Shown one piece after another: positions 10,066 to 59,844 of a stretch of 64,000 nt of DNA. The notes beneath the pieces are model-generated. The model was given only the letters and a program-made list of their open reading frames with translations, searched no databases and had not been told where the DNA came from. A program made the position numbers and the translations under genes. Source of the DNA: Mesobacillus jeotgali (GTDB taxonomy: Bacteria > Bacillota > Bacilli > Bacillales > Cytobacillaceae); the NCBI RefSeq assembly GCF_900166585.1, contig NZ_FVZC01000009.1:310001-374000 (forward strand). Reading direction: 5' to 3'. Every line of letters starts with the position of its first letter. Position 1 is the stretch's first letter.

Positions 10066-12426
10066 TTAAGCCGGTGCATCAAGTTCATCATCTTCAATTC
10101 GCTTTTCATAGTGTTCAACATCTTTCCGGGCGTTGAAGCGGTCTGCCTTTTCAAGTGTGACAGTAATATTGTAGTCCGGAATACCGGCGTACTTTTCATA
10201 GCGTCCTCTTGGCAGCAGGAAGTTTCCTTCAGGGAAGTGCACCTGCACATTACCGCGCGATATGTCCACGAATTTTGCTCTTCCCTGGAAAACACCGAAG
10301 CCGTTGTAAAGAACTATTCCTTCTCCTTCAGCTATGCTAAGGTCCTGGGCATCTTCGGCATTCATCAAGACGTCATAGCGTCCAGCTCCATTAAGAGGAT
10401 CGACCTCATTGTACACCATTGAATTAAATTGTTTTCCGCGTCTTGAGGTTACGATGAATTGGCCTTCCTTTTTGCCTAGATCCGGAATATCGACCGAAAT
10501 CAGATTTCCTCTCCCATCTGGAGTTGGACAAATTCCATCTTCGCACAACCAGGCACCGCCCCATTGGAAAACATCGCCGGCTTTTTTCAGGTGTTGGATG
10601 CCGTTATAGTTAGGGTTGGCCTTCGCAATTTCATTCCTTATTTCCTGGGCATCTTGGAAGTCCACCAAGTGTGCTGTTTCAGGTTTGACCCGCTTGGCTA
10701 GATCAACGTAGATTTTCCATTCAGCACGTGCTTCTTCAACCTGGTTTTTATTGCCTTCGATTTCAGGACTGAAATAAACCATACGCTCAGTAGATGTGGA
10801 TGTTCCTCCGCCCTCCTGCTCATAACGGGTTTTTGCAGGGAGGACAATGACAGCTTCCATCGCGTCTACCAGAGTAGAAGTATTTAAAATGATATCCTGG
10901 TGGACACGGATGTCCAATTCGGATAATGCTTTCTCGACAAAATTTGGATCTGGCATCGTTTCAAGGAAATTACCTCCAGAAAGATAGTACATTTTGATTT
11001 TTCGTTCATGATCTTCGGGGAGTAAAGTATTTTCCAGAGTAACCCCGACAATGTCGCCTTGCCATTCAGGAAGTTCAAATCCCCATAGGTCTTCAATGCG
11101 CTTAATGTTCTCTCCATAAAAATCTCCGCCAGGCAGAACGAAGGGATCCGCACCCATTTCACCGCTGCCTTGAACGGAAGAGTGTCCGCGGAATGGCATA
11201 AGGCCGGCATGCTTTCGGCCAAGGTGGCCTCGGAGCAACGCCAGGTTGGCCACTTGTGAAATGTTATCTGTTGCGAATGAGTGCATTGTTAAACCAAGGG
11301 CCCATGCATAAACGGCATTCTTGCTGTTAGCGAGCAGTTCCGCAAGTTCAATTATACGTTCTTTAGAAATGCCAGAGGAGGCTACAATCTCTTCCCAGCC
11401 TTGACTCTGAACTTTAGCTTTTAATTCTTGATATCCATTTACATGTTCCTTGACAAATTCATGGTTGATGGCAGAACCGTACATCATTTTCTCCATATCA
11501 AACCAGTGCTTCATGATTCCGTGCATAAAGGCGATATCCCCGCCAATATTGACCTGATAAAAGTCATCAGCAATCTTTGTTCCAAACAAGGCTGATTCAG
11601 GATTTGAAGGAATCCAATATTCATCCATTGCCGGCTCTTTATATGGATTGACGACGATTATTTTTGTTCCTTTTTTCTTTGCTTCAAGCATGTACTTAGA
11701 TGAAACAGGGGAGCTGTTTGAAGCTACGCTGCCCCAGAATAGCAGAACGTCGGTTCCAATCCAATCCAGATAATTTGAAGTAGAAGCGCCCACACCAATA
11801 GAGCGTTTCAAAGCGGTTTTGGAAGGTGAATGGCAAATACGGCTGGCATTGTCAATATTATTGGTCCCAAGGAAACGGGATACTTTACCTGCAACATAGT
11901 AGGATTCATTTGTAATTCCACGGCTTGTAAGATAAAAAGCATATTGTTTTGGATCCAGCTTTTTCATCTTCTCTGCAATCATGTCCATTGCTTCATCCCA
12001 AGTAATACGAGAAAAACTCCGCTCGCCTTTTCTGCGGATCAAAGGGTAGGGGATGCGTCCTAATTTACGCAGCTGGGTACTGTCATATTTTCTTAGTTCA
12101 TCAATGTCCGCATGCAGGATTTCCGGATTAATTGCCCCGGCAGTATTAAGCCTGAGGACGTTTAATCTGGTCGTACAAATATGGGGGCCGGTCAAAGTCT
12201 GGTCATGTAGTCCAGATACGCCAAGAGCGCATCCATCACATACTCCTTTGGTCAGGATGTTGGTCGCATAGCCAAAGTTATCCCGATTGTCCCAAAGTGT
12301 TTTCATGGTATCTCTTATATGTTTCGGCTTAACCTTGCCTAGTCCAAAAGGAATTGGGCTGACCCAGTGCTTGGGTGCAGGCATTGCCTCTTTTTTCTGT
12401 GGTCCTGGATGTTTTGTTTTTCCCAT
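10066..12426 (-). CDS. FdhF/YdeP family molybdopterin oxidoreductase (formate dehydrogenase-like)
   Basis: A 786-residue bis-MGD enzyme of the FdhF/YdeP family (usual length 750-790). The N-terminus carries the Cys set of GVCDGCALGVSG (Cys63, Cys66) and HICTTRLN (Cys84), a possible cluster site. Cys198 in SRICHSPSK aligns with the Mo-ligating Cys/Sec of formate dehydrogenases. The C-terminal MGD-binding domain (about residues 640-760) contains TSRRGKQFNSMVY. The start at 12426 follows AGGAG; the upstream ATG at 12447 would include that site in the coding frame. Its neighbours (OFA transporter, DUF2294 protein, FdhD) support a formate role, though acid-resistance YdeP relatives have no proven substrate. 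A leader hairpin precedes it. Confidence 0.88.
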   Translation of the reverse strand: MGKTKHPGPQKKEAMPAPKHWVSPIPFGLGKVKPKHIRDTMKTLWDNRDNFGYATNILTKGVCDGCALGVSGLHDQTLTGPHICTTRLNVLRLNTAGAINPEILHADIDELRKYDSTQLRKLGRIPYPLIRRKGERSFSRITWDEAMDMIAEKMKKLDPKQYAFYLTSRGITNESYYVAGKVSRFLGTNNIDNASRICHSPSKTALKRSIGVGASTSNYLDWIGTDVLLFWGSVASNSSPVSSKYMLEAKKKGTKIIVVNPYKEPAMDEYWIPSNPESALFGTKIADDFYQVNIGGDIAFMHGIMKHWFDMEKMMYGSAINHEFVKEHVNGYQELKAKVQSQGWEEIVASSGISKERIIELAELLANSKNAVYAWALGLTMHSFATDNISQVANLALLRGHLGRKHAGLMPFRGHSSVQGSGEMGADPFVLPGGDFYGENIKRIEDLWGFELPEWQGDIVGVTLENTLLPEDHERKIKMYYLSGGNFLETMPDPNFVEKALSELDIRVHQDIILNTSTLVDAMEAVIVLPAKTRYEQEGGGTSTSTERMVYFSPEIEGNKNQVEEARAEWKIYVDLAKRVKPETAHLVDFQDAQEIRNEIAKANPNYNGIQHLKKAGDVFQWGGAWLCEDGICPTPDGRGNLISVDIPDLGKKEGQFIVTSRRGKQFNSMVYNEVDPLNGAGRYDVLMNAEDAQDLSIAEGEGIVLYNGFGVFQGRAKFVDISRGNVQVHFPEGNFLLPRGRYEKYAGIPDYNITVTLEKADRFNARKDVEHYEKRIEDDELDAPA

Positions 12427-12460: not shown

Positions 12461-12548
12461 AAAAAAACCACCGTTAATCCTGAAACAATACCTTCAGGTT
12501 TAACGGTGGTTAGTCTTTAGCAGGGTCGCTGCCAAGTGCCATACCAAA
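12461..12548 (-). ncRNA. Candidate cis-regulatory leader RNA B with terminator, upstream of FdhF gene
   Basis: On the - strand, a small hairpin GCAG-CGACC-CUGC (around 12530-12518) is followed by ACUAACC. That segment then forms the 5' arm of a strong terminator, AACCACCGUUAA...UUAACGGUGGUU (12511-12466), ending in U7. AGCGACCCUG (12530-12521) is identical to a 10-mer in leader A at 14530-14521. It lies between the DUF2294 stop and the FdhF start, so it could end transcription of the former or gate the latter. Confidence 0.6.
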
Positions 12549-12908
12549 TCAGCTGTTGAATTTTTCCTGGATATCCTCTTCAAATACAAAGATGGACATT
12601 CCGAAATCTCGGTCGATATCGATATCTACAAAAAGTTCCACGAGCTTGCAGCCGAGGAATTCTTCCATTTCAACCGGAGGGTTTTTCCGATACATTTCTT
12701 TCACCATTTCCGTTCTGGCTGCCCGCAGTGCCTGCTTGCCTTCATTAGCAGATGCGATAAACTTCTCAACTGGTGAAAGATTCCCTTCCATTTCGCAAAT
12801 TGCCCACTTCTTACAAAAGGTAGTGGTAATTTTGCTTGGGCCTTTACCCATATGTTTTTTACGGAAGGAACGTACCAAGTTACTGAATTCTGCCTCGTAT
12901 TTATTCAT
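12549..12908 (-). CDS. DUF2294 domain protein
   Basis: A 119-residue protein matching the DUF2294 (Na-translocating-decarboxylase-like) family: the GKGPSKITTTF stretch near residue 22, EMEGNLSPVEKFI near 40, and a terminal segment VELFVDIDIDRDFGMSIFVFE. Some relatives sit beside formate and bicarbonate transport genes, but no enzymatic role is established. AGGAGG stands 6 nt before the ATG. It lies 72 nt after the OFA transporter gene and before the leader hairpin of the FdhF gene, so the three are probably one transcription unit with internal attenuation. Confidence 0.7.
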   Translation of the reverse strand: MNKYEAEFSNLVRSFRKKHMGKGPSKITTTFCKKWAICEMEGNLSPVEKFIASANEGKQALRAARTEMVKEMYRKNPPVEMEEFLGCKLVELFVDIDIDRDFGMSIFVFEEDIQEKFNS

Positions 12909-12980
12909 AATATCCTCCTGTCATCCATACAGGTTATAAGATGAAGGTATTTTACCATAAGGTGAGGCAATTACAAAGGA

Positions 12981-14243
12981 TTAGCCTGCCATTCTTTCAT
13001 TCGCTTCGTTTTGCTTACGAAGTTTCTGGATGTCGCGGCGAATTAAAATGGATACTGCAAGAGCAATAACAAAAAGTCCGCTGAAGAAGGTCAAGCTAGT
13101 TGCATAGCTGCCAGTAGTGTCTTTCATCCATGCTGCGAACATTGGTCCCGCGAGACCGGCAGCTGCCCATGCAGTAAGGATATATCCGTGAATCGCTCCT
13201 AGCTGTTTTGTCCCAAAAATGTCGCCGATGAATGCAGGAATCGCTGAAAAACCGCCGCCGTACATCGTATATACTACAGCCAGCATGACTTGGAAAAGAA
13301 ATGCTTCTTTTGTATGCGGTAATAGCATGAATAAAACAATTTGTGTGGCAAAGAAAATTGTGTACGTATTTGGTCGTCCGATATAGTCTGAAATTGAAGC
13401 CCAGGCGATACGGCCAAAGCCATTAAAAAGACCCATGATCCCGACAAGTGCTGCTGCTTCTGCAGTCGTTAAGCCAATACTCTCTTCAGCTAATGGCTTA
13501 GCCGCAGATAAAATGGCGATACCGCATGTTACGTTGATAAAAAGCATTACCCATAGATAATAAAAACGGGATGTTTTGATCGCTTCATTCGCAGTAAGCT
13601 GGGAAAGATCCTTCTTTACCTTCACCTTGCCTGACGCGGCTTTTTCCCTGAACCCTTCTGGAGCCCAATCAACAGGAGGTTTTTCGAGATAAAGGGAAGA
13701 TAATGTCATAATAATAAAATACGCTGCACCCAAAATATAAAAAGTGTTAGCCGTTCCAACTGATTTAATCAAGGAATCCATGATCGGGCTGCTTATTGCT
13801 GCTGCAAAGCCAAATCCCATGATCGCAAGTCCGGTGGCAAGACCTCTTCTGTCCGGAAACCACTTCACCAAAGTAGAAACAGGCGCAATATATCCTACTC
13901 CGAGACCAATACCGCCCAACACTCCATAAGTAATATACAGTAAAGGCAATGAACCAAGGCTGACTGCAAGCCCTGAACCTAAAATGCCTGCCCCGAAAAA
14001 GCCTGCAGCGAGAAGCCCAGCTTTTCTCGGACCGTGCTTTTCAACAAAATGCCCTAGAAAAGCAGCTGATAATCCTAAAAATAAAATGGCAAGGCTGAAT
14101 GTAAATTGTACTTGCTTGGAAGTCCAGCCGAACTCCTCGATTAATGGGTTAGTAAAGTTGCTCCAGGCATACACTGACCCGATGGAAATATGGATACCGA
14201 CCGCTGATGCTGCAATAAGCCACCGATTCTTAGTCTTTTTCAT
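12981..14243 (-). CDS. OFA-family MFS transporter (oxalate/formate antiporter type)
   Basis: A 420-residue, 12-helix major-facilitator protein. The OFA signature HISIGSVYAWSNF lies at the first helix, and the loop 2-3 motif GHFVEKHGPRKAG and the GGIGLGVGY helix follow. Cationic loops and the central WAPEGF segment fit OxlT/YhjX relatives. It probably moves formate, oxalate or another small carboxylate. The start at 14243 has AAAGGGGA 6 nt upstream; the frame extends to 14393, but that extension would translate the terminator hairpin of the leader RNA. A leader of about 320 nt separates the gene from its promoter. Confidence 0.85.
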   Translation of the reverse strand: MKKTKNRWLIAASAVGIHISIGSVYAWSNFTNPLIEEFGWTSKQVQFTFSLAILFLGLSAAFLGHFVEKHGPRKAGLLAAGFFGAGILGSGLAVSLGSLPLLYITYGVLGGIGLGVGYIAPVSTLVKWFPDRRGLATGLAIMGFGFAAAISSPIMDSLIKSVGTANTFYILGAAYFIIMTLSSLYLEKPPVDWAPEGFREKAASGKVKVKKDLSQLTANEAIKTSRFYYLWVMLFINVTCGIAILSAAKPLAEESIGLTTAEAAALVGIMGLFNGFGRIAWASISDYIGRPNTYTIFFATQIVLFMLLPHTKEAFLFQVMLAVVYTMYGGGFSAIPAFIGDIFGTKQLGAIHGYILTAWAAAGLAGPMFAAWMKDTTGSYATSLTFFSGLFVIALAVSILIRRDIQKLRKQNEANERMAG

Positions 14244-14384
14244 TCTTTTTCCCCTTTGCGCTGTTAAATTTTCGATCTCCAAAAGACACGAATTGCAGTT
14301 GATGAAATCTTTCAAGCTATGAAACCCGTTTGCTATGTACCTTTTTGCTGACTCAAGCAGGATGTACCCCAAAAACAAACAGAA

Positions 14385-14540
14385 AACCGTCAATCTCTCC
14401 GGTCCCCACCCATAGAGGAAGGGACTTTGATAGAAAGATTGACGGTTAGTACCAAGCAGGTATCGCTACTTAATGACCAACTGTTAATCGCTTACATTTC
14501 CACAACATCCTAACCGAAGACAGGGTCGCTATCTCGAATC
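14385..14540 (-). ncRNA. Candidate cis-regulatory leader RNA A with terminator, upstream of OFA transporter
   Basis: On the - strand there are, in order: hairpin GAUAG-CGACC-CUGUC (14533-14519); the segment CGGUUAG (14516-14510); hairpin AAGUAG-CGAUAC-CUGCUU (about 14472-14455); CUAACCG (14449-14443); and a terminator whose 5' arm begins AACCGUCAAUCU (14446 on) and pairs with AGAUUGACGGUU ending at 14385, then a U-rich tract. CUAACCG can pair perfectly with the upstream CGGUUAG or take part in the terminator arm, which is a classical switch geometry. Stem changes GCAG/CUGC, GUAG/CUGC and GAUAG/CUGUC versus leader B keep pairing. The ligand is unknown. Confidence 0.65.
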
Positions 14541-14571
14541 AAAATGTTACAGATTTGTGAACTTCGACAAA

Positions 14572-14600
14572 ATTTTATCATTTTAGCATTATAGTTGCAA
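14572..14600 (-). promoter_or_regulatory. SigA-type promoter of OFA transporter leader
   Basis: On the - strand: TTGCAA, 17 nt, TAAAAT. It places the transcript start near 14565, just upstream of the first leader hairpin. TTGCAA is its own complement and may also serve a divergent promoter toward fdhD, with a TATTATAAT -10 region at 14617-14625. Confidence 0.5.
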
Positions 14601-14723: not shown

Positions 14724-15512
14724 ATGTTAGAAAATATGAGTGATAGATATACGATTACAAAATATCAAAATGGGAAATTTTTGGATGTAGAAGATGTCAT
14801 TGTGAATGAGTTTCCACTTACCATTTATGTAAACGATATGGAGTTCGCTACTATGGTTTGCACTCCTACACATTTTGAAGAAATGGTTGTCGGTTTTCTT
14901 GCTTCTGAAGGGGTGATCCGTTCAAGCAACGACATCCACTCACTCAGCATCGACGAGAGCAGAGGATATGCTTACGTAATGACCAAAGTAAATATGACGA
15001 CTAACCAGGAATATTATTCAAAGCGATTTATTGGCTCATGCTGCGGGAAAAGTCGGCAATTTTATTTTCATAATGACGCCAGGACAGCTAAAACTTCCAT
15101 GTCCAGAACGACCATAACAGCAGCACAAAGCATTGCACTTATGAACCAGATGCAAAGCAGCTCACAGGTTTTTCTTGAAACAGGAGGAGTACATAATGCA
15201 GCTCTTTGTTCACCAACCGAAATCCTTGCAGTACGCACCGATATTGGGCGTCATAATGCATTAGATAAGTTATATGGATATAGTATCCTTAACAGGATTC
15301 CTGTACGAGATAAAGTCATTGTATTCAGCGGCAGGATTTCTTCTGAAGTATTGTTAAAAGCAGCAAAAATCGGAGTGGGTATAGTATTGTCCAAATCTGC
15401 ACCAACAGACCTGGCCATCAAATTGGCTAAGGATTTAAATATTACTGCTGTTGGTTTTATCCGGGGAAAATCTTTCAATGTATATTCTTGTCCAGAGAGA
15501 ATCGTTGATTAA
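14724..15512 (+). CDS. fdhD: Formate dehydrogenase accessory sulfurtransferase FdhD
   Basis: A 262-residue FdhD protein, which transfers sulfur from a cysteine desulfurase to the molybdenum cofactor and is needed for active formate dehydrogenases. Signatures: VNEFPLTIYVND near the N-terminus, FLASEGVIRS, the sulfur-relay Cys pair in GSCCGKSR, TGGVHNAALC, and DIGRHNALDKLYG (GDP/MGD-binding region). The start at 14724 is preceded by AGGTGA; the more upstream ATGs (14634 on) give an atypical basic extension without a ribosome site. It is divergent from the OFA-DUF2294-FdhF unit, whose enzyme is its likely client. Confidence 0.9.
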   Translation: MLENMSDRYTITKYQNGKFLDVEDVIVNEFPLTIYVNDMEFATMVCTPTHFEEMVVGFLASEGVIRSSNDIHSLSIDESRGYAYVMTKVNMTTNQEYYSKRFIGSCCGKSRQFYFHNDARTAKTSMSRTTITAAQSIALMNQMQSSSQVFLETGGVHNAALCSPTEILAVRTDIGRHNALDKLYGYSILNRIPVRDKVIVFSGRISSEVLLKAAKIGVGIVLSKSAPTDLAIKLAKDLNITAVGFIRGKSFNVYSCPERIVD

Positions 15513-36952: not shown

Positions 36953-36984
36953 AAGAAAAGACGCCAGAAAGGCGTCTTTTCTGC
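36953..36984 (+). terminator. Terminator of ysnF
   Basis: AAAAGACGCC and GGCGTCTTTT pair around AGAAA. Confidence 0.8.
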
Positions 36985-37188
36985 GTATTGAGGCGACTGA
37001 CTGCACGCCACATCGTGCATTTCCATGAAGGAGTGTCTGTCGGCTTACACAATTCAGCTCATCGCTTGATTAATATAGCATTTTACAGCTTGGTTAGCAA
37101 GTGGAATTTTTATGCAGGACTCATCATGTTTCAGGAACTGTGATAAAGGGGTATGAAAAAATCAATACAAACAGAGAAGGGATACATC

Positions 37189-59719: not shown

Positions 59720-59783
59720 TGGAAATGAAAACCCCGGGCTATGCCTGGGGTTCCAAAAAGCTTTCAGCGTGGTATTAAAAAAA

Positions 59784-59844
59784 CTTCCCCACGGTGCTAA
59801 AATATTTTTTGGTTCGCCAACCAAAAATATCAGCACGGAGGAAG
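59784..59844 (+). promoter_or_regulatory. RNA stem-loop sequestering the tnpA ribosome site
   Basis: CTTCCCCACGGTGCT (59784-59798) can pair imperfectly with AGCACGGAGGAAG (59832-59844), which contains the GGAGG of tnpA. The inner hairpin ATATTTTTTGG-TTCG-CCAACCAAAAATAT continues the stem. This matches the known repression device of IS200. Confidence 0.7.

Follow-up and report, generated by a model that had tools for sequence, protein, structure and literature searches.

An undescribed attenuator RNA class at formate-metabolism loci of Bacillales and its strict co-occurrence with the DUF2294 protein MpsC

Several described systems resemble the leaders reported here. In the RAT elements (LicT/SacY/BglG), a protein holds a short hairpin with internal loops, one strand of which also belongs to the terminator. 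The Moco RNA motif, like one of our leaders, sits before molybdoenzyme genes. For the ANTAR RNAs (EutV, NasR, AmiR), the sections of the published account that describe their structure report two tandem small hairpins with conserved terminal loops, the second of which overlaps the terminator, and hexanucleotide loops with A at position 1 and G at position 4 (PMC3369931). We analyzed a 64,000-nt stretch of the Mesobacillus jeotgali genome (hereafter, the window), in which two leaders follow a logic of protein-held antitermination that is already known, with an RNA and a candidate protein that are new. This candidate protein, MpsC, belongs to the DUF2294 family (PF10057), which also contains S. 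aureus MpsC and presumably the product of B. subtilis yrhF. In the passages of the published accounts that deal with these two proteins, deletion of S. aureus mpsC gave no growth phenotype, making the gene dispensable (PMC6689103), YrhF is listed as of unknown function (PMC8216469), and an RNA role is not mentioned.

The locus reads, on the minus strand, leader A, a transporter gene of the OFA superfamily, mpsC, leader B, and fdhF. The transporter (12981..14243, minus strand; Pfam MFS_1) has the L-lactate MFS transporter family NF049980 as its best NCBIfam match, above cut-off, and scores under the cut-off of the oxalate/formate family TIGR00890; judging from these matches, its cargo may be lactate or another monocarboxylate rather than formate. 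The candidate RNA-binding antiterminator is encoded by mpsC (12549..12908, minus strand; PF10057 at 114 bits, cut-off 23), and fdhF (10066..12426, minus strand) encodes a molybdopterin oxidoreductase of the FdhF/YdeP family (TIGR01701 at 805 bits, above cut-off, as well as Pfam). The divergent fdhD (14724..15512, plus strand; PF02634) carries no element of the type described below (R1) on its side, the R1 model giving just two matches in the whole genome. Upstream of leader A lies a promoter-like site, TTGCAA-17-TAAAAT (14572..14600, minus strand; 9/12 consensus match), which is weak because the 521-bp region contains four such sites vs 1.8 expected.

Leader A consists of two hairpins and an intrinsic terminator. 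Hairpin H1 (14504..14548, minus strand; −15.8 kcal/mol) is a long stem around GAUAG-CGACC-CUGUC, and H2 (14445..14481, minus strand; R1 match of 52.3 bits), the putative antiterminator, is built from stems P1 (GUUGG/CUAAC) and P2 (AAGUAG-CGAUAC-CUGCUU). The terminator (14385..14447, minus strand; −34.7 kcal/mol over an 88-nt segment) has AAC in common with P1 and ends in a U-rich tract. Leader B has a single hairpin, likewise a putative antiterminator (12508..12545, minus strand; R1 match of 53.1 bits), with P1 GGU(A)UGG/CUAACC and P2 UUGGCAG-CGACC-CUGCUAA; its terminator (12461..12511, minus strand; stem 12511-12466, U-run to 12461; −27.2 kcal/mol) has AACC in common with P1. All three hairpins are of the P2 form NYAG-CGAN(N)C-CUGN. 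The element measures ~40 nt, and its 5-6 nt apical loops (CGANC or CGANNC) and short stems are kept, with variable internal loops. The analysis confirmed the original prediction that related leaders precede the OFA transporter and the FdhF/YdeP gene, that the 10-mer AGCGACCCTG is common to leader A (in H1) and leader B, and that ACUAACC feeds into a terminator, since ACTAACC runs into both.

In H2 and in the leader B hairpin, the 3′ strand CUAAC(C) also opens the terminator, and because this strand is common to P1 and the terminator, the hairpin and terminator states are mutually exclusive. Its conserved alternative partner is the 5′ strand of P1, namely GUUGG (14481-14477) in leader A and GGU(A)UGG (12545-12539) in leader B. 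A pairing of CUAACCG with CGGUUAG in H1, proposed earlier for leader A, was not conserved: of 21 listed leaders A, 19 retain CGGUUA, and wider loci (e.g., L143, L145, L149, L152, L167, L168, L178, and L180) lack it, whereas the strand stays paired within H1. Compared to 200 dinucleotide shuffles, both leaders folded more stably than every shuffled sequence (z of −3.85 for A and −5.42 for B). A permissive pattern that combines the hairpin core with TAACC matched two sites in the 4.63-Mb genome, both at this locus, and none with the reversed control. The same pattern matched in 67 of 193 genomes of the family, many of them by chance, and the longer string AGCGAYCCTGCTAAAGACTAACC was found again in several genera of that set.

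Leader A resembles the ANTAR RNAs in its two tandem hairpins, conserved terminal loops, and terminator-overlapping second hairpin. The ANTAR loop rule nevertheless does not describe leaders A and B, whose loops are CGANC or CGANNC, and leader B has one hairpin instead of two. The strand-sharing of hairpin and terminator is similar to that of the RAT antiterminators. Among the five operon proteins scanned, no ANTAR, CAT-RBD, or PRD domain was found. Unlike the Moco RNA motif and the other Rfam riboswitches, the leaders belong to no family above its gathering threshold: a scan of the window and of eight loci with related leaders gave matches elsewhere and none on the leaders, in keeping with the original prediction, in which no known riboswitch class had been recognized. 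The Rfam matches in the window were BsrF (36957-37065, minus strand; 96.5 bits) and STnc490 (59730-59841, plus strand; 56.1 bits, barely above the threshold of 56).

To describe the element beyond the window, we used the R1 covariance model, which yielded 146 matches (117 distinct) in 90 of the loci examined. In a 30-row alignment, 12 cells were changed on both sides of a pair vs 4.9 in shuffles, and RNAalifold, applied to 19 leaders A with no input structure, recovered H1 and H2 with compensatory pairs. In the 117 distinct rows, which are related to each other and were fitted to the structure, 91.2% of cells were paired and 38 cells were changed on both sides vs 11.2 in shuffles (reached by 0/500; slid controls, 0 to 25); counted by pairs, 5 of 11 were changed on both sides, a value reached by 45/500 shuffles. 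The pairing-preserving stem changes pointed out in the original prediction are real and extend to many genomes. A terminator beginning in P1 (stem of at least 8 bp starting there, plus a U-run) followed 124 of the 132 distinct matches vs 23 of 2640 shuffled tails, and the hairpin-plus-terminator arrangement with a common strand that defines an attenuator was found in the folds of the window as well as in these 124 homologues. The leaders represent an undescribed attenuator RNA class.

Across the order, R1 (E ≤0.05) was present in 68 of 348 genomes and 32 of 126 genera, so that the covariance search, proposed as a check in the original prediction, led beyond the locus to copies with compensatory changes and terminators at formate genes. 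Relatives of the window MpsC with at least 72% identity were encoded in 72 genomes, the rest having at most 52% at the threshold applied. All 68 R1 genomes carried such a close MpsC; four genomes had the protein and no R1 (G217, G348, G398, and G462). FdhF (E ≤1e-100) occurred in 98 genomes, and R1 was found in 66 of the 68 with a close MpsC vs 0 of the 30 without (Fisher 3e-23, phylogeny ignored; one of the 30, G109, is truncated at fdhF by a contig end that adjoins a terminator). Both states were found within genera g44, g84, g100, and g123. Physical linkage of mpsC to the leaders varied: ten g11 genomes have the leaders and encode mpsC elsewhere, beside an fdhD-like gene, in G509 mpsC is on a different contig, and in L157 a second copy of the operon retains the leaders but lacks mpsC. 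In G501, leader B stands upstream of a different formate dehydrogenase. The protein partnership of this attenuator RNA is unusually strict.

The 80 named MpsC relatives come from Mesobacillus, Metabacillus, Cytobacillus, Halalkalibacter, Pseudalkalibacillus, Aquibacillus, and others. Two records with a Bacillales-type locus, Chryseobacterium sp. ISL-80 and Pseudomonas sp. ISL-84 (L225, L296), are probably mislabelled. In 16 fdhF loci lacking a close MpsC, R1 gave no match at E 0.01, and terminator-like structures, most of them weak, preceded fdhF in seven (L208, which has a distant MpsC, L215, and L219; weakly L209, L214, L217, and L220). By eye, the region upstream of fdhF in L217 resembles a decayed H1 (GUAACAUUUUUAAGGGGAGUUAGCGAGCC), as if the RNA had decayed once mpsC was lost. 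A weak R1 match (29 bits; L144, ~5123, minus strand, in G241) lies before a membrane-protein gene outside the formate locus and is either a chance match or a further target.

A second subclass, R2, came from the loci of MpsC paralogues (40-52% identity), in which a hairpin-plus-terminator precedes a ForC/YrhE-type formate dehydrogenase; the element is GGAUUGG/CUAUUCC around UAGUA-AGAUC-UGCUA. With a model built from nine rows, R2 (E ≤0.05) was found in 60 of 348 genomes, 55 of which encode MpsC (the exceptions being G338, G364, G405, G460, and G500). At E ≤1e-5, a cut chosen after the list was seen, it was present in 54 genomes beyond the R1 set, all 54 with MpsC, and among the six weaker genomes MpsC occurred in G401 alone. 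Where a ForC-type enzyme of at least 74% identity was encoded, strong R2 matches accompanied it in 53 of 57 genomes with MpsC vs 0 of 3 without. Taken together, R1 or strong R2 occurred in 122 genomes, every one with MpsC, out of 136 MpsC genomes in total; of the 14 others, at least five have diverged-looking leaders by eye (L182, L183, L200, L203-L205, and L208). By eye, 14 of 18 R2 leaders inspected have a further hairpin upstream, similar to the arrangement of leader A. R1 and R2 are weakly linked by score: R2 gives 14.3 bits (E 0.76) on leader B, less than on two unrelated matches in the window.

The class of NAD-type formate dehydrogenases needs no Moco. In L182, an MpsC of 52% identity is followed by a diverged element, recognized by eye, and then by an enzyme of this type (NF005750). 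The elements precede three unrelated formate dehydrogenase families. Of the compounds suggested in the original prediction, formate is the one that the controlled genes point to, and the molybdenum cofactor is weakened by the L182 copy, which precedes a Moco-free enzyme. Formate/nitrite (FNT) transporter genes adjoining DUF2294 genes (L196, L198, and L199) have hairpin-plus-terminator leaders by eye, and R2 matched weakly upstream of one of them (L196:10097-10129, minus strand; 18.2 bits, E 0.064).

These data bear on what the hairpin binds. A true riboswitch, as first suspected, would have the P1-P2 hairpin bind formate or another metabolite and antiterminate, with MpsC merely a member of the cassette. 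Riboswitches, too, sit in leaders, overlap terminators, and show covariation, the downstream genes have one metabolite, formate, in common, and the co-occurrence of MpsC and the element could stem from cassette inheritance. However, the element tracks MpsC across three enzyme types, even with mpsC unlinked, R1 is absent from the 30 fdhF genomes without a close MpsC, and an RNA of this small size with variable internal loops keeps just its apical loop and short stems. Because the element follows MpsC rather than the enzymes and conserves so little, a protein partner is favored, and we consider a riboswitch unlikely. MpsC is the best candidate for this partner because it accompanies the RNA whether or not its gene is linked to the leaders, and whatever the enzyme.

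Our preferred reading, to which we assign a probability of roughly 0.6, is that MpsC acts in trans as an RNA-binding antiterminator of formate genes, most likely in response to formate or a formate-coupled state. By default, the nascent RNA would fold the terminator, halting transcription into the transporter-mpsC genes and fdhF. When the genes are needed, MpsC would bind the hairpins with CGAN(N)C loops (H1 and H2 in leader A, the single one in leader B) and hold P1 closed, so that CUAACC could not open the terminator and RNA polymerase would read through. MpsC would work on its own operon as well as in trans on unlinked copies. Formate is the putative signal because the genes under control comprise three formate dehydrogenase families and, by eye plus the weak R2 match in L196, FNT transporters. 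The direction of control would follow from the strand common to P1 and the terminator, since whatever closes P1 permits transcription. A terminator-promoting MpsC repressor that binds the hairpin region is, by contrast, very improbable: with that strand shared, a protein holding the hairpin must disfavor the terminator.

Another trans-acting protein might bind the hairpin instead, or MpsC might be a formate dehydrogenase accessory co-inherited with the true regulator. The AF2 model of MpsC (pLDDT 92.5), compared with known folds, had no clear match, and no RNA-binding fold was assignable to it, as this alternative would allow; nonetheless, among the genes examined MpsC alone tracks the element, FdhF does not, and fdhD adjoins fdhF also in loci without MpsC (e.g., L207, L209, and L210). 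We give this explanation little weight. Residues invariant in 12 diverse MpsC proteins include R13, R16, K17, G21, G23, P24, R65, and T66, and could form a binding surface. In the B. subtilis RNA-seq results reported for RoxS induction, yrhF decreased to 0.42 and yrhE/yrhD to 0.69 (PMC10433868), which fits activation by YrhF but may be a direct effect. Pointing the other way are forCE2 of B. subtilis, described as seemingly unexpressed under formate-induction conditions and lowered by ResED (PMC8808070), the dispensable mpsC of S. aureus, the terminator-like structures before fdhF in loci lacking a close MpsC, and the 14 MpsC genomes with neither an R1 nor a strong R2 match.

If the antiterminator reading is true, a class of RNA elements that Rfam lacks would be added, the MpsC/DUF2294 family, also represented in S. 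aureus and B. subtilis, would gain a testable function, and the switching of formate oxidation and monocarboxylate transport in many Bacillales would be explained; its interest hinges on DUF2294 proving to be an antiterminator. More tentatively, and with some way to go before we would call it probable, the DUF2294 proteins, MpsC among them, may form a new family of transcription antiterminators that bind RNA, each subfamily with a hairpin of its own and with a one-carbon or related small anion as its signal. For R1 and R2, which stand upstream of genes for OFA-type carriers, FNT channels, and three unrelated formate dehydrogenase families, that signal would be formate; bicarbonate (sbtA) and xanthine (permease) may be further cases.

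Other DUF2294 contexts were also observed. Tandem-domain proteins of ~228 aa occur in G000 and relatives (L072-L074) in unrelated contexts. A different hairpin and terminator lie between DUF2294 and the bicarbonate transporter gene sbtA in L053/L332, L334, and L335, of the form GGGAGA-UCUUUAA...UUAAAGAU-AAACCG, or with ACCCU/AGGGU; L332, L334, and L335 have an additional terminator upstream of DUF2294, and in L348 an sbtA-type hairpin and terminator sit after it. Remote DUF2294 genes (about 25-35 bits; L075, L076, and L078-L081) precede a xanthine/uracil permease gene, the leader of which can form either GCGGUU/GACCGC around a CUUUUGU-ACGGAAG hairpin or, alternatively, a strong terminator.
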